Origin: Deltaproteobacteria bacterium CG11_big_fil_rev_8_21_14_0_20_47_16
GTDB taxonomy: Bacteria; UBA10199; GCA-002796325; 1-14-0-20-47-16
Assembly (NCBI GenBank): GCA_002796325.1
Contig: PCXA01000001.1
Coordinates: forward strand, 186,001 to 250,000
Direction of reading: 5' to 3'
Length of the DNA stretch: 64,000 nt
The notes below the pieces were generated by a model. That model saw nothing but the letters and a program-made list of their open reading frames with translations, did not search any database and was not told where the DNA came from. Of this stretch, positions 40,627-55,779 are shown one piece after another (the first letter of the stretch is position 1; each line of letters starts with the position of its first letter). The translations under genes were made by a program, and so were the position numbers.

Positions 40627-40734
40627 GGCAGCGTGCCTAGCATATATTGAAATAGGAGGCCAGATCTAACAAGCGCTTGCCTCATCTTTGGCCATTTGCT
40701 ACAACTACAATATTCAAATTCAAGGAGGCTTTAT

Positions 40735-41136
40735 ATGAAAGCGATTTATAAGTGGGTGGCTGTTGCAGTGCTGGTGCTGGGACTAAGTGGTGTTGCTTCT
40801 GCGACGTCCAATATTGATGATGATGTGTTTCCAGCCCAGGGCCCATGTTGGGCCTCATTAGATAAGTACTGCCGTGATTTGCCGGATGGCAAAGGTCAAA
40901 AGATGAAATGTTTGAATGATAATTACGACAAGCTGGATAAGGATTGTAAGTCCGTTGTTGATCAGAAGAAGAAGGATGTGCAGACCATGAAGGATGACTG
41001 TGGTGCTGACCGCCAAAAATTCTGTGCTGACGTGCAGCCAGGAAAAGGTAAAATTCGCAAATGTCTCAAGTCTCATAAGTCAGAATTGAGTGCGGAGTGC
41101 GCTGCAACATTTAAGCGTAATGGCATTAATAATTAA
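40735..41136 (+). CDS. Exported cysteine-rich repeat protein
   Basis: A 133-residue protein with a signal peptide (about MKAIYKWVAVAVLVLGLSGVASA) and Cys-rich repeats of the FGFR/GLG1-like type (PF00839): CWASLDKYCRDLPDGKGQKMKCL and a second DDCGADRQKFCADVQPGKGKIRKCL unit, plus CAATF. Each has spaced cysteines (C-x7-C-x13-C). Lysine-rich and likely periplasmic. ATG 40735 follows GGAGG; the upstream frame from 40696 has no such site. Role unknown; such proteins are frequent in delta-type bacteria. A terminator follows. Confidence 0.85.
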   Translation: MKAIYKWVAVAVLVLGLSGVASATSNIDDDVFPAQGPCWASLDKYCRDLPDGKGQKMKCLNDNYDKLDKDCKSVVDQKKKDVQTMKDDCGADRQKFCADVQPGKGKIRKCLKSHKSELSAECAATFKRNGINN

Positions 41137-41155: not shown

Positions 41156-41193
41156 TAAAGGGCCCGATGGGATTTCCATCGGGCCCTTTTTTT
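41156..41193. terminator. Rho-independent terminator (bidirectional)
   Basis: AAAGGGCCCGATGG and the matching CCATCGGGCCC arm give a long GC-rich hairpin with A run before and eight T after. It serves the Cys-repeat gene from the left and the cbb3 operon from the right. Confidence 0.93.
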
Positions 41194-41299
41194 ATGGCAT
41201 TGGTGGGTGCATCATGTTGTTGGCAATGTAGCCAACGATGCCGATTAGTGCAGCAATCCAAAGGGCTGCCAACCATCGTGGAAATTTGTGATCGCTCAT
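41192..41299 (-). CDS. 35-residue single-span membrane protein of the cbb3 operon
   Basis: A tiny gene found by reading the minus strand: MSDHKFPRWL, a hydrophobic helix (AALWIAALIGIVGYIA) and NNMMHPPMP. Its ATG overlaps the stop of the preceding CcoS-like gene by four bases (ATGA). It may be a small oxidase subunit in the CcoQ position, but it lacks recognisable CcoQ sequence. His/Met-rich ends are notable in a copper-enzyme operon. Confidence 0.6.
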   Translation of the reverse strand: MSDHKFPRWLAALWIAALIGIVGYIANNMMHPPMP

Positions 41300-41466
41300 T
41301 GGTGCACCTTGGTATGGTTATCAAGAAATAGCATCCGTGTTTTGGCAGCTTCGACATTGCGAAATTGACCCCGAAGTGCCGCCCAGATAAATAAACCCCC
41401 AATACCACCAAAGCAGGCAATGCCAATAATCATGGCTACCCAATATTGAGCATCAATTGTTTGCAT
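41296..41466 (-). CDS. ccoS: CcoS-like cbb3 oxidase assembly protein
   Basis: A 56-residue membrane protein. One helix (about 8-30) followed by FIWAALRGQFRNVEAAKTRMLFLDN, matching the CcoS pattern (W-A-x-x-x-G-Q-F-x-D-x-E...R-x-L). CcoS is needed for heme insertion in cbb3 oxidase. GGAGG lies about 5 bases before the ATG. It is coupled to the 35-residue gene downstream. Confidence 0.7.
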   Translation of the reverse strand: MQTIDAQYWVAMIIGIACFGGIGGLFIWAALRGQFRNVEAAKTRMLFLDNHTKVHQ

Positions 41467-41479
41467 ACATCCTCCTTAA

Positions 41480-41716
41480 TTAATGGATGCGCACGCTGGT
41501 GCGTCGATACAATTCTAAAATGCGATATTTCACTTCTTCAACATCCTCGTATTGTCCACGTCCTATGGACCACAGTAAAAGAGATGCCATTCCTAAAATG
41601 CCAGCGCCCATTACAATTAAGATAAAGTTGCGGCTAATCGAGCCATCTTGATTGCAGATGGGGCAAGCCCATGCTGTGCGGGCAATCAAAATTGAAAGTA
41701 GCGCTACAATTCTCAT
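41480..41716 (-). CDS. Small membrane protein with CPIC motif
   Basis: A 78-residue protein: signal-like helix, CPIC at 18-21 (a possible metal or redox pair facing the periplasm), a second helix (about 31-49) and a charged cytoplasmic tail. It overlaps the end of the triheme cytochrome gene by four bases (41713-41716). I do not recognise a family; the position suggests a cbb3 assembly or accessory role. Confidence 0.65.
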   Translation of the reverse strand: MRIVALLSILIARTAWACPICNQDGSISRNFILIVMGAGILGMASLLLWSIGRGQYEDVEEVKYRILELYRRTSVRIH

Positions 41717-42855
41717 TGCACCTTTCCTTCAGAGAGTTGTCTCACAAAGTAAGCAAGGGCCTGTCGATCTTCTTCAGGGAGCTGGGCAAATGGTACCATG
41801 GCTGTTCCAGGAACACCTGTTTCTAAGATCTTTAAAATGTGATCGGTTGTGGGTCTCAACTTTGTAAATGCTGGTGGTGATGGAACGAGCGCGGCGCCGA
41901 CGGGACCATCACCTGCGCCACTGGGTCCATGGCAGGTTGCACAGAGTGCGGCGAATTGCTGCTTGCCACGCTCTAGTAGGGAGCTACTCATGTCACTTCC
42001 GGTGCTCGCAATGTCTGTCTCAGGAGATAGTGTTTGAACATAGAATGAAATGGCCCAAAGGTCTTCGGGTTTGTAATCACGGAAGTGTGGCATGGCACTT
42101 CCAGGAATGCCTGTATTTAGAATCGTATAGATATACTCAGCTGATGGTTGAATCTTTGTCAGGTTTGCTGCAGCTGGTACGAGCAGTTTTGCTGAAATGC
42201 CATCGGCATTACCCGTCTTTCCGTGGCAGCCACTGCACTCACGTGCATAGAGATAGTGTCCACGTTCAAGTAGTGCGTCGGATTTTTCTGGAGCATGACC
42301 TGCGACAAAGTTGCGACGGTAGTCATCGTTAGCCGCTTTCATTTGATCAGCGGTGTTCCGACCAATGGATTGAATGTACGCAACTAAAGCGCGTGCTTTA
42401 TCTGTTGGAACGAGTTGTCCATCTTTCTCTTCAAACATCCAGGGGAATGCGGGCATGATCGACCACGGAACAGTGCCGCGTGGATTGTATAGATGTGCAA
42501 GCTGCCAATCGTCACTGCGTTTTCCTGATTCGCGTGCCAGGTCAGGCCCCACACGACGCGTACCAAAGAGCTGTGGAATTTCCAATGCGTGTTCCTCTGC
42601 AGTTGAAACGGGTCCATACCGAAGTGATTCGCCCGCAACTGGTCGAACGAATTGGGTGTGACAATGCCAACAGGCCTCTTGCATGAAAATTTCGCGCCCC
42701 TGTTCTTCTTCGGGAGTGCGTGCTGTCATGCCTTCAGGAAGTTGCAATCCCTTCAATGTTGTCCAAGGTGCTAATCCCATTCCTAAAAAGGACAGAAGGA
42801 AAAAGCCGATGCCGGCGATTAGAAAGATGGTTTGAAATCGTTCAAGCCGCTTCAT
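41713..42855 (-). CDS. Triheme CcoO-CcoP-like fused cytochrome c subunit of cbb3 oxidase
   Basis: A 380-residue protein with one N-terminal membrane anchor (about 8-28). Residues 50-165 match CcoO: CWHCH (62-66) plus TQFVRP, LFGTRRVGPDLARESGKRSDDWQLAHLYNPR and SIMPAFPWMF with the distal Met. Two more class I heme domains follow: CSGCH (207-211, Met in GSAMPHF) and CATCH (305-309, Met in GTAMVPF), equivalent to diheme CcoP but without its membrane helix. So CcoO and CcoP functions appear fused. It overlaps ccoN by 14 bases. Electron entry to the oxidase is the inferred role. Confidence 0.85.
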   Translation of the reverse strand: MKRLERFQTIFLIAGIGFFLLSFLGMGLAPWTTLKGLQLPEGMTARTPEEEQGREIFMQEACWHCHTQFVRPVAGESLRYGPVSTAEEHALEIPQLFGTRRVGPDLARESGKRSDDWQLAHLYNPRGTVPWSIMPAFPWMFEEKDGQLVPTDKARALVAYIQSIGRNTADQMKAANDDYRRNFVAGHAPEKSDALLERGHYLYARECSGCHGKTGNADGISAKLLVPAAANLTKIQPSAEYIYTILNTGIPGSAMPHFRDYKPEDLWAISFYVQTLSPETDIASTGSDMSSSLLERGKQQFAALCATCHGPSGAGDGPVGAALVPSPPAFTKLRPTTDHILKILETGVPGTAMVPFAQLPEEDRQALAYFVRQLSEGKVQ

Positions 42856-44209
42856 GGGAAGCTCCTTTTTTGCTGCATGCTGTTTTGATGAGGACGATAG
42901 TGAAAAGCACCATGCCGAGGTACATGAGAATTCCAGAGATCATGCGGAACATCCAGAATGAACCAGACTGTACGACGGACTCAGCAAAGGGTTGGCCTGA
43001 AATCCAGTCGTAACCTTGGATGAGGCCGCTGGCTGTGAGTGGAATGAAATAGAAAATATAGAAGCCGAGTGTCATGGTCCAGTAGGCCCACCATTGCATG
43101 CGGCGTGAGACCAATTCGCGGCCTGTTACTTTGGGCCAAATGTAGAGCAGGCTGCCAATGTTCCAATAAGTGAATGCACCAAAGAGCGCTAAGTGCGCAT
43201 GGGCAACCACCCAATCTGTAAAGTGAATGACTTTTTGTACAGACAAGAACGCATGGAAGGGTCCTTGAGTACATGTTGCCATATAGGCGAAGACGCCGGT
43301 GACAATAAATGTCAGTGCTGGGGATGAAGCCACTTCTCCCCAACTTCCGCGCAGTGTCATAAGCCAGTTGTAAACAACCGAGACAACAACAACGAACAAG
43401 ACGGCGGTGAGTGGAACTGCAAGAACTTGCACCCACCATGGAATGGGGCTGAAGAAGTAGTGGTGGGCACCGCCGAGTGGATAGAAAAATGCGAGTGTCC
43501 AAAAACCAATGAGTGAGATGAGGTGGCTATATACCGGTTTTTGCAAAATGATGGGTATCATGAAGTAAACGATGCCCACGCCCATGGGTGTTACAAATAG
43601 GCCCACCGCATTGTGAATCCATAGTCCCGTGATTGCAGCGCCTGCGGCGCCTGGTGCAACATAAGCAACGATAGTGTTGGCCATCACGTAATTCAAAACA
43701 GTGAATGCAAATCCCAAAATGAAATACCATGAGCTGACATACAGTTGTTTTTCTTCAGACATGAAAATGGTGCCAAGGTAGTTGATGGTGGCCATCACAA
43801 AGCCTGCAGCGAAGAGAATGTCGCCATACCAAGGAAATTCGGCATACTCGATGGCTTGCATGTCGCCGCCCAGAATGGCACCGAGACCGACAGCCATTGC
43901 TAAAACCAAAACCCACAGTGTCCACCACGCGAGTTTTTCGGAAAGTAGCGGGCGATTGCTTAGTTTTGGAATAACATAGTTAAGGATTGCAAAGAAGGAA
44001 ACGCCGAGCCACCCAAAGATAACGCCGTTCGTGTGAAATACACGCAGGCGTCCAAATTGTAGCCACGCAACGGTGCCCAAGAAGTCAGGCCACACAAATT
44101 TGGCAGCTAAAATGAGTGCAAAAAAAAGTGGTACCAATATGCCTGCCAGCGCAACGTACGTATAGGCGCGGACAAGCGGCCCACTCACGACAGCTTTGTC
44201 GGAATCCAT
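42842..44209 (-). CDS. ccoN: cbb3-type cytochrome c oxidase catalytic subunit
   Basis: A 455-residue heme-copper oxidase subunit with about 12 membrane helices. Heme b ligand His59 (FHTNG), CuB ligands His199 (WIHNAVG) and His249/250 (GGAHHYFFSPIPWWVQ), heme ligands in HFTDWVVAHAHLALFG (His329, 337, 339). Tyr243 lies exactly 44 residues after His199, as does the cross-linked Tyr of known CcoN, so it is an O2 reductase and not a NorB NO reductase. First gene of the minus-strand operon, behind a Crp/Fnr-like palindrome. Electron donor is the fused cytochrome subunit. Confidence 0.9.
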   Translation of the reverse strand: MDSDKAVVSGPLVRAYTYVALAGILVPLFFALILAAKFVWPDFLGTVAWLQFGRLRVFHTNGVIFGWLGVSFFAILNYVIPKLSNRPLLSEKLAWWTLWVLVLAMAVGLGAILGGDMQAIEYAEFPWYGDILFAAGFVMATINYLGTIFMSEEKQLYVSSWYFILGFAFTVLNYVMANTIVAYVAPGAAGAAITGLWIHNAVGLFVTPMGVGIVYFMIPIILQKPVYSHLISLIGFWTLAFFYPLGGAHHYFFSPIPWWVQVLAVPLTAVLFVVVVSVVYNWLMTLRGSWGEVASSPALTFIVTGVFAYMATCTQGPFHAFLSVQKVIHFTDWVVAHAHLALFGAFTYWNIGSLLYIWPKVTGRELVSRRMQWWAYWTMTLGFYIFYFIPLTASGLIQGYDWISGQPFAESVVQSGSFWMFRMISGILMYLGMVLFTIVLIKTACSKKGASHEAA

Positions 44210-44259: not shown

Positions 44260-44277
44260 ATATGACGGCCGTCATAT
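44260..44277. promoter_or_regulatory. Crp/Fnr-like palindrome before ccoN
   Basis: ATATGACGGCCGTCATAT is an 18-base perfect palindrome with half-sites ATGAC-N4-GTCAT. It is centred 41.5 bases before a start site that a TAGAGA -10-like element (minus strand, 44239-44234) would set, the classic activator position. It is one of four similar sites in the window. Confidence 0.65.
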
Positions 44278-46371: not shown

Positions 46372-47505
46372 ATGAAACTTTATTCAACAAGTGATCCCTA
46401 TCAGTGGTTCTTCCCCATTGGCATTTTGTTTGGTGTTGTAGGCACGGGCCTGTGGGTAGCATATAAATTTCACTTCATAGTTGGCTATCCAGGTGGTCTT
46501 CACGCTGACTTAATGTCAGGAGGGTTCTTTTTAAGTATTGCCCTAGGTTTTTTGATGACAGCTGCTCCTAAGTTTTCTGGAACAGAATCTGCGACATTTT
46601 TGGAAAAGCTAACGCAGGCAAGTGTTCTTGGTTTGATGTTGTTGGTGGTTTTCCGTGGTGATTCCACAGGGTTTCATGTTCTGTTAATTGTTGAGTTGCT
46701 GTTTTTAATACTATTTCTTATGCGACGATTTTCTCGCGCCACTCAAAGAGTGTTGCCGGCGCTGTTGTTTGCTGCCTTTGGGCTTGGGTCTGCATTGTTG
46801 GGAAGTGCTATTTTAGCTGTTGCTGATGTGTGGACGGTTCCTGATGGGGCTCTTCGTTTTGGAAAGCTTCTACTATTTTATGCAACATCACTTTATCTTA
46901 TTTTGGGTGTTGGGGCACAGTTATTACCAATGTTAATGGGCACCACACATCTAGCTAGAATACGCTTACAACAAACTAAAATTCAAATTTTATGGTCCGC
47001 AACAATTGTGATGGCCGGGTTTTTATTAGAAGCTTACGGAAATGTGGTTGTGGGACGCTTTATTCGTACGGGAATTATTACATGGATAATGTTTGGGAGG
47101 TGGAAAGTTTGCTATCGTCCACGATCAGGGACGGTCTTGGGCTATATGGTGTGGCTGTCGACCTGGATGGTGTTGATTGGCATGTGGGTGATGGTTGTCC
47201 TACCACAGTACCCACTTGTTGGTGGGCATCTCTACTTTATTGGTGGCGTCTCACTCATGGTCTTTTCTGTGGCAACCCGTGTAGTCTTGGCCCATGGAGG
47301 ACATGGCCTTATGGTTGAGCGGCGATCCAAAATATTATGGTTGCTGTTGTTGCTATTGGGTGCGGCTGTACTGACGCGCAGTGCTGCTCCGTTTTTGAAG
47401 GGTATGTATGAATCTCATCTTGCTTATGCGGCAATATGCTGGATATTGGCAAGTGTGACGTGGTTGGTGGCTTTTCTGCCCAAACTTTATCTTCGAAAAA
47501 ATTAA
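46372..47505 (+). CDS. nnrS: NnrS family heme-copper membrane protein
   Basis: A 377-residue protein with about 12 membrane helices. The opening FPIGILFGVVG, the YPGGLHADLMSGGFFLSIALGFLMTAAPKFSG block with its His and the later VLAHGGHGL segment are typical of NnrS (PF05940), linked in other denitrifiers to NO tolerance. It sits after hemH in the same direction and converges with the hemerythrin gene. Confidence 0.85.
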   Translation: MKLYSTSDPYQWFFPIGILFGVVGTGLWVAYKFHFIVGYPGGLHADLMSGGFFLSIALGFLMTAAPKFSGTESATFLEKLTQASVLGLMLLVVFRGDSTGFHVLLIVELLFLILFLMRRFSRATQRVLPALLFAAFGLGSALLGSAILAVADVWTVPDGALRFGKLLLFYATSLYLILGVGAQLLPMLMGTTHLARIRLQQTKIQILWSATIVMAGFLLEAYGNVVVGRFIRTGIITWIMFGRWKVCYRPRSGTVLGYMVWLSTWMVLIGMWVMVVLPQYPLVGGHLYFIGGVSLMVFSVATRVVLAHGGHGLMVERRSKILWLLLLLLGAAVLTRSAAPFLKGMYESHLAYAAICWILASVTWLVAFLPKLYLRKN

Positions 47506-47514
47506 ATGACACAT

Positions 47515-48084
47515 TTATTTTGAATGCAATTGTTGAATGAGAGTGGTAGCTGTTTCCACATCTTCCTTTGGAAGTAGTTTTCGTGCTTGAGGGAATAGGA
47601 ATTGTTCTTCTTTTTGCATGTGGAGCGGTAATATCATGAGCACGGCTTGTGCTTCACCAAGCAAAGCCTCTAAGGCAAGTTTGTTGGCAGGTTGCTGTTG
47701 TAGCATCTCTGAAAGTAGCCCAATGGCGTGGATGTGCGACGCGATATCTGTGTGCTCACGAAGCATGTACTCTGTGGGGGCGTGAATGGTGTCAAAAGTT
47801 TTTGATTCACGCCAACGGACACCAATGATGGGATAAAATGCAATTTCTTCGTCTCGTGTGTGTGCGGCGACCTCAGCTTCATGGAATGATTTGAAGTTTT
47901 GAATGACAGTATAAATAAGTGGTTGCCATTTGCGACTATGTTGGAGTGTTGAGATTGCCTGTGAAAACGGCACCAGGGCATCGCGAATTTCATGATGAAA
48001 GCCCTCTAATATGTCAAAACAGTCTATTTTTTTCACCGGGGCAGTATAGTTACTTTTTTCCAAGTGAAGTATGATGGGGATCAT
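47515..48084 (-). CDS. Hemerythrin HHE-domain protein
   Basis: A 189-residue helical protein with diiron-type motifs: GFHHEIRD, FHEAEVAAHTRDEE, LREHTDIASHIHAI and LPLHMQKEEQFLFP. This pattern matches HHE/YtfE-like proteins, which act in NO or iron-sulfur stress. The first ATG (48084) is inside the Crp/Fnr-like palindrome, so translation may start lower, for example GTG 48036, or the operator mainly serves the divergent nos operon. Confidence 0.82.
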   Translation of the reverse strand: MIPIILHLEKSNYTAPVKKIDCFDILEGFHHEIRDALVPFSQAISTLQHSRKWQPLIYTVIQNFKSFHEAEVAAHTRDEEIAFYPIIGVRWRESKTFDTIHAPTEYMLREHTDIASHIHAIGLLSEMLQQQPANKLALEALLGEAQAVLMILPLHMQKEEQFLFPQARKLLPKEDVETATTLIQQLHSK

Positions 48085-48137: not shown

Positions 48138-48581
48138 ATGACAGTAAAAATGATGTTTGGTTTGTTTGTTCTGTGTGGGCTGTTTGTGGTGAGTGTAGCT
48201 TGTAGTAAGTCAGGTGATGGCTCTGCTCAGAGTGCGCCTGCTGTAAATGAGATGGGTGTAGGGCCGATTCAATCAAAAGTGACAATGGAACCCATCAATT
48301 CCGCTTTAGTAGCTCAGGGTAAAAGGGTGTTCGAGGAAAAGTGTAGTGCCTGTCATAAATTTGGCGAGCGTTATGTGGGGCCAGATCTAAAGGGTGTTAC
48401 CCTAAGACGTAAGCCTGAATGGATTATGAATATGATTTTGAATCCGCAAGAGATGACGCAGCAAGATGCGACAGCGAAGGAATTGTTGGCGACGTATATG
48501 ACTCAAATGACTTTTCAAAATGTCAGCCAGGATGATGCGCGTGCCATTTTGGAATATTTTAGGCAGAATGATTCACAATAA
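48138..48581 (+). CDS. Lipoprotein cytochrome c of the nos operon
   Basis: A 147-residue monoheme cytochrome with lipobox SVAC (Cys22), heme motif CSACH near residue 71 and Met ligands in the TQMTFQNVS region. Likely periplasm-facing electron donor to NosZ, like the cytochromes found in clade II nos clusters. GGAGTCC precedes the ATG by some bases. First gene of the operon, 24 bases before nosZ. Confidence 0.87.
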   Translation: MTVKMMFGLFVLCGLFVVSVACSKSGDGSAQSAPAVNEMGVGPIQSKVTMEPINSALVAQGKRVFEEKCSACHKFGERYVGPDLKGVTLRRKPEWIMNMILNPQEMTQQDATAKELLATYMTQMTFQNVSQDDARAILEYFRQNDSQ

Positions 48582-48605
48582 CTTGCCCTTAGGGCGGAGG
48601 CTTTT

Positions 48606-50540
48606 ATGAGACATACATTATTCCGGTGGTCGCTGGTGCTCTGCATTGCCAGCGCTGTTGTTGCATCTGTCGCTCTTACTCATTGTAGCAAGGGTGGGAG
48701 TAATTCCAATATTCTGGCGAGTGATGCGGCTAAACGTGTGTACGTTGCCCCCGGACAGAAGGATGAATTCTACTGGTTTATGTCGGGAGGATATTCTGGG
48801 CAGGTAGCGGTCTATGCTATTCCTTCAGGCCGCCTCATTAAACAGATTCCTGTTTTTTCGCTGTTTCCTGAAGATGGGTATGGGATCGAGGAGGAAACCA
48901 AGGACATGTTGTTGACGTCACATGGTTATATTCCGTGGGGAGATGCTCATCATCCAGAAGCCTCGATGACCAAGGGTGTACAAGATGGCCGTTGGCTTTT
49001 TATTAATGAAAACAACACACCTCGTATTGCTCGAATTGATCTGAAGTCCTTTTCTACCGCTGAGATTATTGAAATTCCAAATACTTCAGGTAACCATGCC
49101 TCGCCATTTTCAACGGAAAATTCAGAGTATCTCATGTCGGCAACTCGTTTTTCCTATCCCATTCCTCAGAAAGATGTGTCTGTGCAAGACTCGGAGAAGG
49201 GTGTTCTCAATGGCAGCATCTCTATGATCAAAGTGGATCCCACAAGTGGTCGTATGAGTATTGCATTACAGATTCTGGTGCCTGGCTATGACTATGACAT
49301 CTCACATTGTGGTAAGGGCCCGTCGCATGATTGGTGCTTTTTTTCCACCTATAATACTGAGCAAGCCCATAAGATGCTTGAGATTGAAGCATCTAAGAAT
49401 GATAAGGACTATATTCTGGCGTTTAACTGGAAGAAGGCAGAGCAGTGCTTGGCTGATGGAAAGGCAAAAGATTTTTCAGGCGTATATTACACCAATTTCC
49501 ATCCAGAGAACAAGGCCACTATCGCTGAAAAACATAGTGGCGTGAAAATGATTACAAATCCAGCTGATTGCTCCGGCATGATGTATTACCTGCCTACTCC
49601 AAAAAGTCCACATGGTGCGGATGTAGACCCATCTGGTGAGTATATCGTGGGTGGAGGAAAGCTAGCGTCCCTTATTCCTGTGCATTCATTTGAAAAGTTG
49701 CAAAAGGCCATTAATGACAAGTCTAATTATATCAAGGTTGTCGATGGAATTCCTGTCCTAAAATACGAATCCACGTTGGCAGGTGAGGTACAAAAGCCAT
49801 GCTTAGGTCCTTTACATACAGAGTTTGATGGCCTCGGCTATGCGTACACCTCCTGCTTTATTACCTCTGAGGTGGTGAAATGGAAGTTGGGAACCTGGGA
49901 GGTGGTAGATCGTATCCCTGTCTATTATAGCATTGGCCACCTAAGTATTGCGGGTGGTGATTCTGCCAAGCCAATTGCCAAATATCTTATTGCGTTGAAC
50001 AAGATTACAAAGGACCGGTATTTGCCTGTTGGCCCCGAGGTTACACAGAGTGCGCAGTTGATCGATATTAGTGGGTCTAAAATGAAGATGCTTTTGGATT
50101 TTCCAACGATTGGCGAACCTCACTATGCACAAGGAATTCCGGCATCCCTCTTGGCAGAAAATAGCCAGAAAATCTTCATTTTGGCTGAAAATGAAAATCC
50201 TTATGCAGTTAAAAATGAAAAAGATGCACGAGTGGAGCGCGATGGTAAAACGGTTCATGTTTATATGACATCAATCCGATCACACTTTAAGCCGGACGTT
50301 GTTGAGGTTAAAGTGGGTGATACCGTTTATTTTCATGTCACCAACTTAGAGCAGGATTATGATATTGATCACGGATTTGCTGTCTATGGTGCTCCAACAT
50401 CTAACATCTTGATCATGCCAGGTGAGACAAAGACAATGCGATATGAAGCAACCAAAGAAGGTATCTACCCGTTTTATTGCACCGACTTTTGTTCTGCATT
50501 GCACCAAGAGATGCAACAGTACTTGCGTGTGACAAAGTAA
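48606..50540 (+). CDS. nosZ: Nitrous oxide reductase, clade II (Sec-type)
   Basis: A 644-residue copper enzyme reducing N2O to N2. The leader MRHTLFRWSLVLCIASAVVA has no twin-arginine motif, so export is by Sec, the mark of clade II (atypical) NosZ. CuZ ligands begin at DAHH (113-116), and more His lie in GNHAS, DISHCGKGPSHD, SPHGADVD, LHTEF, GHLS and EPHYAQ. The CuA domain at the C-terminus has Cys625, Cys629, His633 and Met636 (CTDFCSALHQEM) plus a His in DIDHGFAV. All key residues are present. It works in the periplasm with the cytochrome encoded just upstream. Confidence 0.96.
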   Translation: MRHTLFRWSLVLCIASAVVASVALTHCSKGGSNSNILASDAAKRVYVAPGQKDEFYWFMSGGYSGQVAVYAIPSGRLIKQIPVFSLFPEDGYGIEEETKDMLLTSHGYIPWGDAHHPEASMTKGVQDGRWLFINENNTPRIARIDLKSFSTAEIIEIPNTSGNHASPFSTENSEYLMSATRFSYPIPQKDVSVQDSEKGVLNGSISMIKVDPTSGRMSIALQILVPGYDYDISHCGKGPSHDWCFFSTYNTEQAHKMLEIEASKNDKDYILAFNWKKAEQCLADGKAKDFSGVYYTNFHPENKATIAEKHSGVKMITNPADCSGMMYYLPTPKSPHGADVDPSGEYIVGGGKLASLIPVHSFEKLQKAINDKSNYIKVVDGIPVLKYESTLAGEVQKPCLGPLHTEFDGLGYAYTSCFITSEVVKWKLGTWEVVDRIPVYYSIGHLSIAGGDSAKPIAKYLIALNKITKDRYLPVGPEVTQSAQLIDISGSKMKMLLDFPTIGEPHYAQGIPASLLAENSQKIFILAENENPYAVKNEKDARVERDGKTVHVYMTSIRSHFKPDVVEVKVGDTVYFHVTNLEQDYDIDHGFAVYGAPTSNILIMPGETKTMRYEATKEGIYPFYCTDFCSALHQEMQQYLRVTK

Positions 50541-50564
50541 TGGGGAAACCCGTAAGGAGAACGA

Positions 50565-51161
50565 ATGTTGCGACAGTTGTCACGGCGTAACCGTTACCTG
50601 ATTCTTCTGGTAGGGTTACTGCTCCTCGGGTTGTATTTTGCACCGCTGTGGTTTGTCCAGTTAACGGCACCGCAATACCCTGAAGGTCTGGGTATGAATC
50701 TGTGGATCCATAAAATTACAGGTTTGGGACAATTTGATCTTCAGAATATTAATTTGCTCAACCACTATGTTGGGATGGATCCCATTATCGAGCAGGCGAT
50801 ACCTGAATTTGGCTATATGCCCTATGTTGTGGCGTTTATGATTCTTGGGGCGGTTGTTACATTCCTTTATCCACGTCGCTTCATGGTATATTTGGGGTTG
50901 GCGAATTTGCTTTTAGTGGGAACTGCGGGTATGTGGGATTTTTGGCGTTGGGAATATAACTACGGCCATCATCTAAACCCAGGCGCGCCAATTTCAATAC
51001 CAGGGATGGTCTATCAACCACCGCTGCTTGGATGTAAGCAATTGTTGAATATCGAATCCTGCAGTTGGCCTCACCTAGGTGGTTATCTATTGTTTCTTGT
51101 GACGGCAGTGTTGCTGTTTGTAATTGTTAGTGAACATTCGAAAGGGACGGCTAGTAAATGA
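50565..51161 (+). CDS. Membrane protein of the nos cluster (NosB-like position)
   Basis: A 198-residue protein with about four membrane helices. The periplasmic part after helix 1 (APLWFVQLTAPQYPEGLGM... INLLNHYVGM) and later GMWDFWRWEYNYGHHLNP are conserved-looking. A membrane protein directly after nosZ is usual in clade II clusters (NosB in Wolinella); I assign it by position and topology only. Overlaps nosL by four bases. Function unknown, possibly maturation or electron transfer. Confidence 0.7.
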   Translation: MLRQLSRRNRYLILLVGLLLLGLYFAPLWFVQLTAPQYPEGLGMNLWIHKITGLGQFDLQNINLLNHYVGMDPIIEQAIPEFGYMPYVVAFMILGAVVTFLYPRRFMVYLGLANLLLVGTAGMWDFWRWEYNYGHHLNPGAPISIPGMVYQPPLLGCKQLLNIESCSWPHLGGYLLFLVTAVLLFVIVSEHSKGTASK

Positions 51162-51568
51162 AACGATTGTATCTGTTGGGTTGGGCGATATTTTTGCTGC
51201 TGGCAGCGTGTCAGCAATCTGGATTTTTTGATTTTAAATCGGGTGAATTTCAATGTGATAATTGTCGCATGTCTATTGTTGATATGCGCTATAAGGCAGA
51301 AGTACGTAGTCCTAAGGGGAAGCTCTATTATTTTGATTCGATTGAGTGTATGAACGATTGGTCAAAAGAACATCCCGATCAAGTGGGAACCCAATGGGTG
51401 ACAAATTATTATGATCCTTCCCAGTGGCTTGATGCTAAAAAGGCATTGATTATGGTGGGGAACAATATTCCATCGCCTATGGGTGGACACTTGTTGGCAG
51501 TCGCAACTGAAGAGGAGTGGCGCCGTGCCCAAAAAGAATTCGGTGGTAAAAAAGTCGCCCATCCTTAA
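51158..51568 (+). CDS. nosL: Copper lipoprotein NosL
   Basis: A 136-residue outer lipoprotein (lipobox LAAC, Cys18) with CDNCRMSIVDMRYKAEV (the C-x2-C-x-M copper region), YFDSIECMNDW and a late Met pair, matching NosL, a Cu(I) chaperone for the CuZ centre. Overlaps nosD by 44 bases. Confidence 0.92.
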   Translation: MKRLYLLGWAIFLLLAACQQSGFFDFKSGEFQCDNCRMSIVDMRYKAEVRSPKGKLYYFDSIECMNDWSKEHPDQVGTQWVTNYYDPSQWLDAKKALIMVGNNIPSPMGGHLLAVATEEEWRRAQKEFGGKKVAHP

Positions 51569-52808
51569 GGGTGGCGTGTTCCTCATCACACTCTCTCTTG
51601 TGTTCCTGTCAATGCCACCATTACTTGCAGAAACGCTTCATGTGTGCTCCAGTTGTGCTAACACTACAATAAGGTCTGCAATTTTTGCAGCTCACAATCA
51701 AGATACCATAGTTGTCGCAAATGGAGTGTACCCTGAAGGCCAGCTTCTGGTTGATAAGTCCCTTATAATTTTGGGTGAAAATCGTCCTGTTGTAGATGGG
51801 CTTAATCAGGGACATGTGTTTTTGGTTAAGGCGGATCATGTGTCAATTAGTGGCTTTAAAATTCAAAATTCAGGTGTGAGTGTGGTGGAAGAGTTTGCGG
51901 GCATTCTTGCTGATGACGTTTTAGATTGCTCATTCATTGATAATGTTTTGAAAAATACGACATATGCAATTTACTTAGCTCATGTTGAAGGATGCCGATT
52001 AGATGCAAATGTGATGATGGGAAATGCAAAGGACGAGGTGAATGGCGGCAACGGCATTCACATGTGGTACTCTAAAAAGATTAGTATTCGTAATAATCAC
52101 ATTCAAAATCATCGAGATGGCATTTATCTGGAATTTAGTGATGATTGTGTTTTAGAGGGAAATAAGAGTGTACACAACTTGCGATATGGATTGCACTTTA
52201 TGTATTCCAACCGTGATCACTATATTCGTAATACTTTTGAATATAACCAAACAGGTGTTGCCGTTATGTATTCACATCATATCGTGATGGATGGAAATCA
52301 CTTTTCCCATAGTTGGGGTCGGACTTCCTATGGACTTTTGTTGAAGGAAATTGATGATAGTCAGATTGTTTCCAATATGTTTTTTGGGAATACAGTGGGT
52401 ATTTATATGGATGGGGTCAACCGTTCTCAATTCACAGAAAATAGTTTTAGAAACAATGGTTGGGGTGTAGAAATTTTGGGAAGTGCTGCAGATAACCAGT
52501 TTTCAGCTAATAACTTCATGAGCAATTATTTTGATGTGGCGACAAATTCGTTGGAAATACATAACACTTTTGACGGCAATTATTGGGATTCCTATAAAGG
52601 ATATGATTTAAACAAAGATGGCGTTGGCGATGTGCCGTTTCGTCCAATGAAAGTTTTTAGTCTTTGGATTGGTCAATACCCAGAGTTGGTGGCGTTGTTG
52701 GAATCTCCCGTGATTGATTTTTTAGAAATGGCAGAGCGTATATTTCCAGTGCTGACACCTAAGCTGCTCCAGGACAATGCGCCACGTATGAATGTGGGGT
52801 CATTGTGA
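51525..52808 (+). CDS. nosD: NosD copper-site maturation protein
   Basis: A 427-residue periplasmic protein with a signal peptide and right-handed beta-helix repeats (NosD/CASH domains; many N-x-x-x-x-N-x-x-G-I/V-x-L turns such as NNHIQNHRDGIYLEFSDD). It works with NosF and NosY in CuZ assembly. Start: GTG 51525 after GAGGAG; the longer frame from 51483 would lie deeper in nosL. An unusual CSSCANTTI follows the signal. Confidence 0.9.
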   Translation: MPKKNSVVKKSPILKGGVFLITLSLVFLSMPPLLAETLHVCSSCANTTIRSAIFAAHNQDTIVVANGVYPEGQLLVDKSLIILGENRPVVDGLNQGHVFLVKADHVSISGFKIQNSGVSVVEEFAGILADDVLDCSFIDNVLKNTTYAIYLAHVEGCRLDANVMMGNAKDEVNGGNGIHMWYSKKISIRNNHIQNHRDGIYLEFSDDCVLEGNKSVHNLRYGLHFMYSNRDHYIRNTFEYNQTGVAVMYSHHIVMDGNHFSHSWGRTSYGLLLKEIDDSQIVSNMFFGNTVGIYMDGVNRSQFTENSFRNNGWGVEILGSAADNQFSANNFMSNYFDVATNSLEIHNTFDGNYWDSYKGYDLNKDGVGDVPFRPMKVFSLWIGQYPELVALLESPVIDFLEMAERIFPVLTPKLLQDNAPRMNVGSL

Positions 52809-53518
52809 TTACAATTCATAATTTGAACAAGTCGTATGGATCCCATCATGTTCTTAATGATGTTTCATTAGAAATCCCAAAGAACTGTTTGTTTGCCCTC
52901 TTGGGGCCTAACGGGTCAGGAAAGACAACGGCCCTTAAAAGTATTTTGGGGAATGTCCTGCCACAACCAGGTAGCCAAATTATAATCGATGGCCACAATA
53001 CAATTGGCAAATATCATTACAAACATCTTATTGGCTATATGCCGCAGGCTACCCGGTATCCGCCGCATTTGCGTGTGGATGAACTCATCACACTTCTCAA
53101 GCGTTTACGTAAACAACCCACACCGCTTCTTGATCGTTTGGTTGAAGAGTTGCAAATAGCACCATTTTGGAAGAAAAAATTGGGTGCGTTGTCAGGTGGC
53201 ATGGCGCAAAAGGTAAATATATTGCAGTGTTTTATGTTTGATCCAAAAGTAGCTGTGCTTGATGAACCTACACAAAGTTTGGATCCACAGGTGTCATATA
53301 TATTAAAGCGCTTCCTTAAGGAGTATCGTACGTCGGGAAAGACGATTGTCTTTACGTCTCATGTGATGTCAGAAGTACAAGAGTTGGCGGACCTGATGGC
53401 GCTTATGGTTGATGGGCGCGTGTATACAGTGACCTCGCCACAAAAATTAATGATAGATAACAGTGTGCAGTCGCTTGAAGAAGCTCTGCACCAGTTTTGG
53501 ACCCATGAAGCGACTTAA
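52805..53518 (+). CDS. nosF: NosF ABC ATPase
   Basis: A 237-residue ABC ATPase. Walker A GPNGSGKTT, signature LSGGMAQKV, Walker B VAVLDEPTQSLDP and switch His in VFTSHV. With NosY it forms the transporter that drives NosD-dependent CuZ assembly. GTG start overlaps the nosD stop (GTGA). Overlaps nosY by 14 bases. Confidence 0.94.
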   Translation: MITIHNLNKSYGSHHVLNDVSLEIPKNCLFALLGPNGSGKTTALKSILGNVLPQPGSQIIIDGHNTIGKYHYKHLIGYMPQATRYPPHLRVDELITLLKRLRKQPTPLLDRLVEELQIAPFWKKKLGALSGGMAQKVNILQCFMFDPKVAVLDEPTQSLDPQVSYILKRFLKEYRTSGKTIVFTSHVMSEVQELADLMALMVDGRVYTVTSPQKLMIDNSVQSLEEALHQFWTHEAT

Positions 53519-54353
53519 AAACATATGGCATTCGCCACTTATTACGATTGCGGTATTTGAATTTTATGAAAATATTCGCAACAAATGGTTGTTTATATAT
53601 GGCCTTACTTTTTTGGCACTGAGTGCATTGATTGTCTACTTAGGTGTTTCAGATCCACTTCAGGCTGCGGGGTCGCTCTTAAGTTTGGTGCTTTTACTTG
53701 TGCCCCTGTTTTCTCTGGTTTTTGGGAGTATCTCGTTTTCTGAATCTCTTCGATTTGCAGAGGTTCTAATTTCCCAACCCATTTCACGTCGAGATATTTA
53801 TCTTGGTAAACTGTTGGGTCTGAGCAGTGGGCTTATGTTGAGCTTTATATTTGGTATGGGATTGGGTACTGTATTCCAAGTTGGCCTTCATGAATCTGGC
53901 ACAGCCAACTATGTGCTGCTGCTGATTCTGGGGTGTCTCCTAACCTTGACGTTTTTGAGCTTGGCATTCTTTCTGGCAACCGTTGTGCGTAAGCGAGAAC
54001 TTCTTTTTGGGTGGGTGTTGCTTGCTTGGTTTGGGTGTTTTGTTTTGTATGATTTGGTTGTTGTTGGTGTGGCCTTGTTATTTGGGAACTACCCACTCGA
54101 AATTCCAATGTTGATTTTTGTATTCTTTAACCCCATTGATTTGGCGAGAGTTGTTTTCCTTGTGCATTCAGATCTTTCTGCAATGATGGGTTATTCTGGG
54201 GCTGTATTTCAAAAATATCTGGGGCATAATGCAGGTGTTGGTCTTGGTGCTGCTGTTATGTTGCTCTGGGCCTTGCTGCATTTAAGCGTCGCGATTTGTA
54301 ACCCTTGTTTCGTTAGGCACAAGTTGATAGATCATATCCATGGCCTCATTTGA
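53505..54353 (+). CDS. nosY: NosY ABC permease
   Basis: A 282-residue ABC-2 type permease with about six membrane helices (FEFYENIRNKWLFIYGLTFLALSALIVYLG at the N-terminus; SFSESLRFAEVLISQPISRRDIYLGKLLGL elbow; FFNPIDLARVVFL later), standard for NosY. ATG 53505 is used over the longer frame beginning 53463 inside nosF. Overlaps the next regulator gene by 14 bases. Confidence 0.92.
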   Translation: MKRLKNIWHSPLITIAVFEFYENIRNKWLFIYGLTFLALSALIVYLGVSDPLQAAGSLLSLVLLLVPLFSLVFGSISFSESLRFAEVLISQPISRRDIYLGKLLGLSSGLMLSFIFGMGLGTVFQVGLHESGTANYVLLLILGCLLTLTFLSLAFFLATVVRKRELLFGWVLLAWFGCFVLYDLVVVGVALLFGNYPLEIPMLIFVFFNPIDLARVVFLVHSDLSAMMGYSGAVFQKYLGHNAGVGLGAAVMLLWALLHLSVAICNPCFVRHKLIDHIHGLI

Positions 54354-55041
54354 TTTAATTCAACAGCTTTGTCAGTGCGAACTTTTCTCAGGGCTTTCTA
54401 AAGAAGAGGTTCTGGGACTTTCTGCGCATTGTCGCATTCGTCATTTGCGTCGAAATGAAGTACTCTTTCATGCAACTGACCCTGCCAATTTTGTTTATGT
54501 TGTTCTGTTTGGTAGTGTGAAGATATTTCGCTCAAATAAAGATGGTAAAGAGCGCATTATGCACTTCCTGATGCAGGGCGAACTGTTTGGTGCAGCAGTT
54601 GCCTTAAAGGGAGGTGTGTATCCGGTTACTGCGTCAGGTCTTGAGCATACAAGCTTGATTGAGATTGCAGCACCTGTTTTTAAGTCTATGTTCATGAAAC
54701 ATCCGGTGGTTGGTCAGACGCTTGCCTCACAGATGGCAGAACGCGTGCGTGAGTCCCAAAATGATCGCATCGCAATATTTGATACGGTCGAAAAGCGTAT
54801 TGCTGTATTTTTGATAGACCTATTGGGGCAAAGTTGTAAACGCTTTGGTCCGACGACCCGTATCCCCATTCCACTCACTCGGCAAGATATTGCTGACCGT
54901 GTGGGGACAACCGTTGAGACGGTCATTCGAACATTATCGAACTGGTCTAAAGAGAACTTGATCATTGCTGAAAACAAACAGCTTGATATTCCCCATATTC
55001 AAGACTTCTGCCGTCGAATCGGGGTCGATCAGGTATCGTAA
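54340..55041 (+). CDS. Crp/Fnr-family regulator 1
   Basis: A 233-residue protein: cyclic-nucleotide-binding-like beta-barrel (about 20-125), long dimer helix and a winged HTH near 170-210 (PLTRQDIADRVGTTVETVIRTLSNW). Glu and Arg of the recognition helix (VETVIR) are kept as in Crp/Fnr, which fits a TGA-type half-site. It lacks the Fnr cysteine set, so it may sense heme-bound NO/CO or a nucleotide (Dnr-like). Overlaps nosY by 14 bases, so it belongs to the nos operon. Confidence 0.88.
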   Translation: MASFDLIQQLCQCELFSGLSKEEVLGLSAHCRIRHLRRNEVLFHATDPANFVYVVLFGSVKIFRSNKDGKERIMHFLMQGELFGAAVALKGGVYPVTASGLEHTSLIEIAAPVFKSMFMKHPVVGQTLASQMAERVRESQNDRIAIFDTVEKRIAVFLIDLLGQSCKRFGPTTRIPIPLTRQDIADRVGTTVETVIRTLSNWSKENLIIAENKQLDIPHIQDFCRRIGVDQVS

Positions 55042-55083
55042 AAATCCATTGCTGGTGTGGTATTGCGGGGGTATATCCGCCGT

Positions 55084-55779
55084 ATGAAGCAAATACCTTG
55101 CAATGTCTGCTCGTCAAGAAACACGGGTGTCTTTTGCCATCTGTCTGCGGCAGATCAGGCGCTTTGCAATAATCATAAGACATCTAATCTCTATAAATCA
55201 GGGCAGAAGTTGTTTTATGAGGGGAATCTTCCCTTAGGAATCTACTGCGTGTTCTCAGGAAAATTGAAATTGTATAAAACTGGAGTGAATGGACGTTTAC
55301 AAATTGTGCGGCTTGCAAGTGCAGGTGATCTTCTTGGCTATCGTTCGCTAATTTCAGATGAACCATACTCTGCAACAGCGGAAGTCATAGACGAAGCTAT
55401 GGTGTGTTTTATTGATAAGACAACCTTCTTTGATGTCCTTCGTCGTAATCCTCAGTTAGCCCTCGAAATGATGAAGAAGTTGTGTCGGGAATTACGTGAA
55501 GCCGAGGACCATGTAATGGATGTTGCACAAAAGTCGACACGTGAGCGTATGGCAGCCCTACTTCTTACGCTAAAAGAAGCCTATGGCAGCCCAATTTTGG
55601 GAGGCGGTTTTAGTCTGGGAATTGAGCTCTCCCGGGAAGAAATGGCTGAAATGATTGGCACCACTCAAGAGACCGTGATTCGATTGCTCTCGGAATTGCG
55701 TAGTCAGGGAGTAGTAGAAATTGTGGGTCGCTCAATCACAATTTTAAAAGAGAAAAACCTTCAGTCTTTGATCTCATAA
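55084..55779 (+). CDS. Crp/Fnr-family regulator 2 with N-terminal cysteine cluster
   Basis: A 231-residue regulator. ATG 55084 places four cysteines at 6, 9, 18 and 28 (CNVC...FCHLS...LC), which could hold an iron-sulfur cluster or zinc; spacing differs from E. coli Fnr. Sensor barrel about 35-150, HTH at about 185-215 (LSREEMAEMIGTTQETVIRLLSEL) with Glu and Arg kept. A longer GTG start at 55057 is possible. It follows regulator 1 after 42 bases and is a good candidate oxygen sensor for the local regulon. Confidence 0.85.
   Translation: MKQIPCNVCSSRNTGVFCHLSAADQALCNNHKTSNLYKSGQKLFYEGNLPLGIYCVFSGKLKLYKTGVNGRLQIVRLASAGDLLGYRSLISDEPYSATAEVIDEAMVCFIDKTTFFDVLRRNPQLALEMMKKLCRELREAEDHVMDVAQKSTRERMAALLLTLKEAYGSPILGGGFSLGIELSREEMAEMIGTTQETVIRLLSELRSQGVVEIVGRSITILKEKNLQSLIS

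Follow-up and report, generated by a model that had tools for sequence, protein, structure and literature searches.

What becomes of the CcoP subunit in a cbb3-type oxidase operon without a ccoP gene? The question is raised by a 64,000-nucleotide stretch of contig PCXA01000001.1 (positions 186,001 to 250,000, forward strand; assembly GCA_002796325.1) of Deltaproteobacteria bacterium CG11_big_fil_rev_8_21_14_0_20_47_16, called the window below and numbered from its first letter. Many bacteria use cbb3-type enzymes as their main high-affinity respiratory oxidases, and models of their mechanism are built on the canonical CcoNOQP complex. On the minus strand of the window, from 44209 to 41192, five genes lie head to tail and form a cbb3-type oxidase operon; all five reading frames are open, and Pfam matches to COX1, FixO and FixS uphold the five-gene layout proposed in an initial annotation of the sequence. 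The reading favored here, at a probability of roughly 0.78, is that the operon encodes a C-family (cbb3-type) oxygen reductase of non-canonical form whose CcoP is split up: the diheme part sits at the C-terminus of CcoO and the membrane anchor is a separate 35-residue subunit. The operon and its borders comprise the following features:

42842..44209, minus strand: ccoN-like catalytic subunit, 455 residues (open reading frame; Pfam COX1, 2e-74)
41713..42855, minus strand: CcoO joined to two class I cytochrome c domains (triheme), 380 residues (Pfam FixO, 2.7e-37, and cytochrome c domains)
41480..41716, minus strand: FixS/CcoS-like protein with a CPIC motif, 78 residues (FixS, 9.8e-06, above the Pfam cut-off)
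41296..41466, minus strand: second FixS/CcoS-like protein, no cysteine pair, 56 residues (FixS, 4e-05, above the Pfam cut-off)
41192..41299, minus strand: single-helix protein, 35 residues, predicted free-standing helix of the FixP_N (CcoP anchor) type (helix-family profile)
44260..44277, no strand assigned: perfect 18-nucleotide palindrome ATATGACGGCCGTCATAT, about 50 nucleotides upstream of ccoN, putative regulator site (sequence)
41157..41189, no strand assigned: terminator-like hairpin of 15 pairs with a T tail, located where the operon and the gene at 40732-41133 converge

The genes overlap by 14 nucleotides (CcoN/CcoO), 4 nucleotides (CcoO/CPIC gene) and 4 nucleotides (second CcoS-like gene/helix gene), with a gap of 13 nucleotides between the CPIC gene and the second CcoS-like gene, and their starts are preceded by purine-rich stretches, which are candidate ribosome sites.

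The heme-bearing half of the answer lies in the second gene. The initial annotation had described its product as a single protein with a CcoO domain and two more heme c domains, and the domain search bears this out. The three heme motifs are CWHCH, CSGCH and CATCH (CXXCH at residues 62, 207, and 305), each followed within its domain by a methionine (M134, M255, M353), and the only membrane helix is N-terminal (residues about 7-30). In the predicted structure, computed from 20 aligned rows (pLDDT 82.8, pTM 0.79), residues 38-169 form the CcoO domain, with Z scores of 10.4-11.3 to five CcoO chains, and are accompanied by two class I cytochrome c domains, the last of which resembles alternative complex III cytochromes (Z 11.4-11.8) and CcoP (Z 10.1, chain 8snh_G). 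The match of this region to the ccoP model TIGR00782 is weak, at 45.1 bits for a cut-off of 179.95, and a search against phages returned 0 matches.

The fusion is not peculiar to this genome. A genome scan confirmed 306 relatives, the best 80 of which were retained for all locus counts given here. In 19 of these 80 (L047-L065), CcoO carries extra cytochrome c domains, giving 15 triheme proteins, three tetraheme ones (WOR-3) and one diheme protein (L064), in records titled Deltaproteobacteria, WOR-3, Tectomicrobia, Parachlamydiales, Nitrospirae, and Planctomycetota; L053 and L056 among them are near-copies. A full-length fusion, 60% identical, occurs in the independent genome G038 (L013, L047; L047 shares its contig with the G038 locus and with L044), and plasmid-borne fusions are found in cultured Acetobacter, Komagataeibacter, Paraburkholderia, Sinorhizobium, and Phyllobacterium. 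As it recurs in independent loci, the fusion is genuine and conserved, and no sequencing fault. Within the window's own class, the full triheme form is present in 2 of 46 genomes (this one and G038) and an unfused relative in a third (G013), a scatter which suggests that the oxidase was spread in the class by gene transfer. The WOR-3 loci L048, L049, and L063 bear a fourth heme c domain on CcoO, which groups with the extra domain of the Planctomycetota locus L064 (98/91); this is a hint only, as the single-domain tree of c domains has 97 columns, too few for placing domains.

The anchor half is found at the other end of the operon. The 35-residue protein has one hydrophobic stretch, and its relatives are small one-helix reading frames downstream of ccoO with a P-x-W...W...Y pattern, the proline, tryptophan, and tyrosine being invariant in 28 of 28 rows. 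The Pfam model of the CcoP anchor domain, FixP_N, matches 15 of these 28 members (best E 1.1e-5). A profile built from 38 helices, taken solely from unfused loci outside the window clade, was searched against every stop-to-stop frame of the window (1890 in total); the sole significant frame was that of the 35-residue protein (41195-41317, minus strand, E 1.9e-6), the next reaching 0.2, and no value better than 7.3e-5 was obtained from 37800 shuffled frames. Applied to the fused loci, this profile detects a helix in 16 of 19, all but L048, L050, and L064. Of the 61 unfused loci, 55 have the helix at E 1e-3. Taken together, the profile match and the FixP_N matches within the family indicate that the CcoP anchor persists as a separate protein: judged by its sequence, the 35-residue product is the CcoP membrane anchor, surviving as a protein of its own.

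Several observations weigh against this. The window protein alone gives no direct match to FixP_N, the link being made via its relatives, and a first helix profile was non-significant in canonical CcoP (E 1.4). Among the loci missed, L048 shows no detectable helix despite about 3.5 kb of downstream sequence, which looks like a real absence, while L050 and L064, likewise without a detectable helix, both end early. In L134 (Acetobacter) and L135 (Paraburkholderia), the FixS-like protein is present and the helix was not found. The helix is a putative member of the oxidase complex.

The remainder of the genome (99.75% complete, 20 contigs) provides no other CcoP. It holds one FixO match and none further, and FixP_N finds nothing in it at E 1e-3, with a positive Caulobacter control; a separate ccoP, the product of which might have replaced the extra domains in the complex, was thus not found elsewhere. 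The initial annotation had stated that the usual separate CcoP with its own membrane helix was missing: this holds for a FixP_N-bearing CcoP protein, at the same threshold, and fails for the helix itself, which is present as the 35-residue reading frame.

The origin of the two extra cytochrome domains is best approached from the unfused relatives. Their CcoO has one heme in all 56 readable loci (five of the 61 could not be read by the script), and in each of the 51 assessable loci (10 of the 61 could not be assessed) ccoN is directly preceded by a gene for a diheme cytochrome c. By eye, these upstream cytochromes begin with a signal-peptide-like or lipobox-like stretch. The notion that unfused relatives lack any CcoP cytochrome was considered and ruled out, since frames with two CXXCH motifs reveal the diheme gene upstream of ccoN. 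In the fused clade, the upstream gene is absent from 16 of 17 assessable loci and present only in L047, the nearest relative, which combines the triheme fusion with an upstream-type diheme cytochrome (a 447-residue frame) before ccoN. A profile of the upstream dihemes (L122, L123, L083, and L090 left out) gives the window's diheme part 110.7 bits, versus 33.5 and 34.1 for two canonical CcoPs, which speaks against taking the extra domains simply as CcoP. For the fused dihemes of the rhizobia, the upstream-diheme profile gives 222 and 221 bits and a window-clade profile 108 and 115, suggesting that the rhizobial fusion is separate from that of the window clade. In a two-domain tree, the window clade and the Acetobacter/Paraburkholderia forms make up one group (100/100), with open deep forks and an unsettled bootstrap. 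Most simply read, these sequences suggest that CcoP exists as two separate halves throughout the group and that its cytochrome half was fused with CcoO on at least two occasions; the reverse order of events is also compatible with the open deep forks.

The catalytic subunit is equally informative. Aligned with six canonical rows, the window CcoN keeps His59, His199, Tyr243, His249, His250, His337, and His339, and the 44 residues from His199 to Tyr243 equal the His207-Tyr251 spacing of Pseudomonas stutzeri CcoN, so that the cross-link distance called correct in the initial annotation is confirmed. Five other P. stutzeri residues, W203, E127, Y237, H243, and E323, are replaced by Gly195, Pro126, His229, Gly235, and Gln315, respectively; some of these belong, we presume, to a proton route. 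The 78 non-canonical CcoN rows all retain the catalytic histidines as well as Tyr243 and Asn281 (at His59, 2 of the 54 unfused rows show a gap and the other 52 can be read), and in them Pro126, His229, Gly235, and Gln315 are invariant, the six canonical rows having Glu, Tyr, His (five of six), and Glu in these columns. In the Trp203 column, 69 of these 78 rows show Gly and the other 9 Ser; within the window clade, all 20 rows show Gly. The score of the window CcoN against the ccoN equivalog TIGR00780, 218.3 bits, is far below the cut-off of 583.15, and phmmer against the PDB places canonical CcoN on top and NorB far lower.

A tree of 87 CcoN sequences sets seven canonical rows on one side of a branch (100/99), namely the six rows and an odd Paracoccus plasmid row, L129. 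The 54 unfused rows form a group of their own (100/99), and the window groups with the 19 fused relatives (92/83, or 99/98 once L064 is left out), the deep branching order being an open fork. Rows were dropped as short (L071, L073, L099, L122, L123), for lack of a CcoN hit (L101, L116) or as repeats (L013, L014, and L133, of L047, L068, and L134). On this tree and alignment, the window CcoN is non-canonical, on a branch apart from canonical CcoN. Nevertheless, L129 (Paracoccus versutus plasmid pBEN), on a long branch, has Pro, Tyr, Gly, Gln, and Trp at five of the signature columns, and given these intermediate residues, the signature makes no clean two-way split between canonical and non-canonical forms.

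The two remaining operon genes were described in the initial annotation as a CPIC protein and one CcoS-like protein. Both reading frames stand, but both are FixS/CcoS-like, since the CPIC protein also passes the FixS cut-off. Its CPIC motif follows a hydrophobic stretch at the N-terminus and precedes the membrane helix. A C-x-x-C motif occurs in the FixS-like protein of 15 of the 19 fused-clade loci (L057, the FixS-like frame of which lies outside the searched stretch, was counted as a miss) and of 10 of the 61 unfused loci, of Bdellovibrionota, Verrucomicrobia, and Deltaproteobacteria type; a second FixS/CcoS-like copy is also present in L049 and L063. According to the available text of a Campylobacter study (PMC8267372), deletion of CcoS or CcoI abolishes oxidase activity, which copper partly restores. 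The CPIC protein is presumed to serve copper loading, and the CcoS-like pair, one member of which has cysteines placed to lie near the outer face of the membrane, would probably help to load CuB or heme, recognizable CcoG and CcoH being absent from the genome: FixG_C (CcoG) and FixH (CcoH) found no match in it, the Caulobacter controls being positive for both. Two heavy-metal P-type ATPases are encoded, one of which (L137) passes the copper-transporter cut-off (TIGR01511, 593.5 versus 397 bits).

The neighboring features of the operon are the following:

40732-41133: convergent gene with a cysteine-rich repeat (PF00839), sharing the hairpin 41157-41189 with the oxidase operon
46372-47505: NnrS-family protein, between the oxidase and nosZ
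47515-48084: hemerythrin-domain protein, between the oxidase and nosZ
48138-48581: cytochrome c gene of the nos cluster
48606-50540: NosZ, Sec-dependent type (903.9 bits versus a cut-off of 625)
54340-55779: two tandem Crp/Fnr-family regulators after the nos genes, possible regulators of the oxidase or nos genes

The nitrous oxide reductase cluster spans 48138-54353 and includes, by eye, frames resembling nosD, nosF, and nosY. In the genome, NirS was not found, the sole sub-cut-off NirK match falls on the nosZ gene, and NorB is absent among the two COX1 members; in view of these three negative results, the organism may be a non-denitrifying N2O reducer. The two COX1 members are the window CcoN and an aa3-type subunit at C1:383139-384464. 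The latter belongs to a cluster (L042, G000:C1:377000-393000) with, by eye, alternative complex III, SCO, CoxB with a heme c, CoxA, and CoxC, and with a small Cox subunit fused to two cytochrome c domains, so that cytochrome c fusion occurs in both oxidases of this genome. As for regulation, the core of palindrome ATATGACGGCCGTCATAT has its sole exact match in the window at this site, and with one mismatch allowed it is equaled in 6 of 100 shuffles. Boxes of the Crp/Fnr type (TTGAY-N4-RTCAA, one mismatch allowed) number 13 in the window for 12.6 expected, which is no signal. Terminator-like hairpins number 4 for 3.7 expected, the one at 41157-41189 being notable solely for its long stem.

Three other explanations have to be weighed. 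The operon could encode a plain CcoO-CcoP fusion that lost the CcoP helix, the 35-residue protein being an unrelated small subunit (CcoQ-, CcoM- or CcoH-like). The total heme c count, which equals that of CcoO plus CcoP, agrees with this, as do the weak TIGR00782 match and the resemblance of the third domain to CcoP 8snh_G mentioned above. It is unlikely, however, because by profile the diheme part is nearer to the upstream dihemes than to CcoP (a comparison with two CcoPs only, and one in which the tree leaves the join open) and because the helix family matches FixP_N, the FixQ model being absent among the 21 families of that search. An artefact of frame or assembly that joined two genes is conceivable in a single draft assembly, but scarcely credible when the full-length fusion recurs in an independent genome and in 18 more loci, and also on finished plasmids of Acetobacter, Komagataeibacter, Paraburkholderia, and Sinorhizobium.

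The third explanation concerns the substrate: the enzyme might be a nitric oxide (NO) reductase, or an NO-detoxifying enzyme, and not an oxygen reductase. The nearby nosZ, NnrS, and hemerythrin genes fit, as do the loss of Trp203 and Glu323 and the presence of NosZ in a genome with no NorB among its two COX1 members; moreover, cbb3 oxidases are able to reduce NO according to the accessible part of a review (PMC8780969). Against this, the cross-link tyrosine and the CuB histidine pattern are kept in 78 of 78 rows, whereas both NorB controls have Ser in the tyrosine column and Trp in the His199 column, and NirK and NirS were not found, leaving the genome with no NO source of its own among those looked for. 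This alternative is judged very unlikely, and the sequence features favor O2 as the probable substrate.

Under the preferred reading, electrons would be donated by a cytochrome c, either soluble or lipid-anchored, to the two C-terminal heme c domains, from which they would pass to the CcoO heme c, to heme b and to the heme b3-CuB center of CcoN, where O2 would be reduced. In the accessible text on the cryo-EM structure of the Rhodobacter capsulatus enzyme (PMC7876108), CcoN, CcoO, and CcoP have 12, 1, and 1 membrane helices; given this count, an equivalent arrangement in the membrane could be restored by CcoN, the triheme CcoO and the separate helix. The complex would then keep three hemes c and two extra helices like canonical CcoNOP and differ in its covalent joins.

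A broader proposition, for which the odds appear even, is that these enzymes form a large unnamed subfamily of C-family oxidases spread over many phyla. Its joint marks would be a free FixP_N helix, an upstream or fused diheme cytochrome, CcoS-like proteins, some with a cysteine pair, and altered residues around the active site and the presumed proton route (W203G/S, E127P, Y237H, H243G, E323Q). Proton uptake and copper loading would be unlike those of studied enzymes, and there would have been at least two diheme-CcoO fusions. The retention of the CcoP helix as a tiny protein while the hemes moved suggests that the helix has its own job in the complex, and the residue changes in CcoN constitute natural variants for the study of the proton route. 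These questions are experimentally accessible, as Sinorhizobium meliloti, which is readily handled in the laboratory, carries a relative (L127), and they would gain interest should these enzymes as a group turn out to be a subfamily with a mechanism of its own. Genome annotation overlooks or mislabels these oxidase parts.

How does this oxidase compare with known systems? With the canonical CcoNOQP enzymes (P. stutzeri 3mk7, R. capsulatus 6xkw, P. aeruginosa 8smr), it shares CcoN/CcoO homology, the catalytic ligands, and three hemes c; unlike them, it has no separate CcoP, a split-off helix, changed CcoN residues, and no FixG_C or FixH match in the genome. The best NCBIfam match of the fused protein is PRK14486 (NF011054), a putative bifunctional cbb3 subunit II/cytochrome c, at 162.5 bits, short of the 447-bit cut-off of this 294-position model. 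An alphaproteobacterial oxidase survey of 2019 notes, in its accessible text, that the C family seems more compact than others (PMC6431628).

On the Komagataeibacter xylinus E25 plasmid pGX3, H845_3258 is annotated as 'putative cytochrome C oxidase (monoheme and diheme subunits)' and is fused like the window protein. It is represented in the trees by the Acetobacter copy L134, the diheme part of which falls with that of the window in one clade (100/100). Unlike the window, this form shows no detected helix and has two extra cytochrome c genes upstream, and its CcoN sits on a long branch near the unfused group. On the Acetobacter and Paraburkholderia plasmids (L134, L135), the triheme operon and the two upstream cytochrome c genes are accompanied by a substrate-binding protein gene, a setting which hints at a special electron donor.

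A close published parallel comes from Nitrospina gracilis, whose cbb3 oxidase has, in the available description, all three subunits fused and Gly for Trp203 (PMC3578206), the fusion being repeated in the available part of a later paper (PMC10839748). The former text treats this Gly as without precedent outside Sinorhizobium and presents the combination His202, Gly203, and Tyr208 as shared only with Sinorhizobium. The S. meliloti pSymA operon L127 indeed has His202-Gly203...Tyr208, a triheme CcoO (554 residues), a FixS-like protein and a helix frame, the last being labeled 'hypothetical protein' in the record and the FixS-like frame unlisted. Its identification as fixN3O3 was set aside, since fixN3, O3, Q3, and P3 are listed together in the available text of PMC10671737, unlike an operon without ccoP. 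As in the window, CcoO and the two-heme part form one polypeptide in Nitrospina (by the published description) and Sinorhizobium, and Gly replaces Trp203; the window differs in having Thr and Asn in place of His202 and Tyr208, and a separate CcoN, which in Nitrospina is fused too (954 residues). In the literature searched, which covered subscription papers thinly and is, therefore, weak evidence of absence, neither the free helix nor the wider oxidase group was found described. Fused cbb3 oxidases as such are already in print, and the window enzyme is a variant of this known kind.

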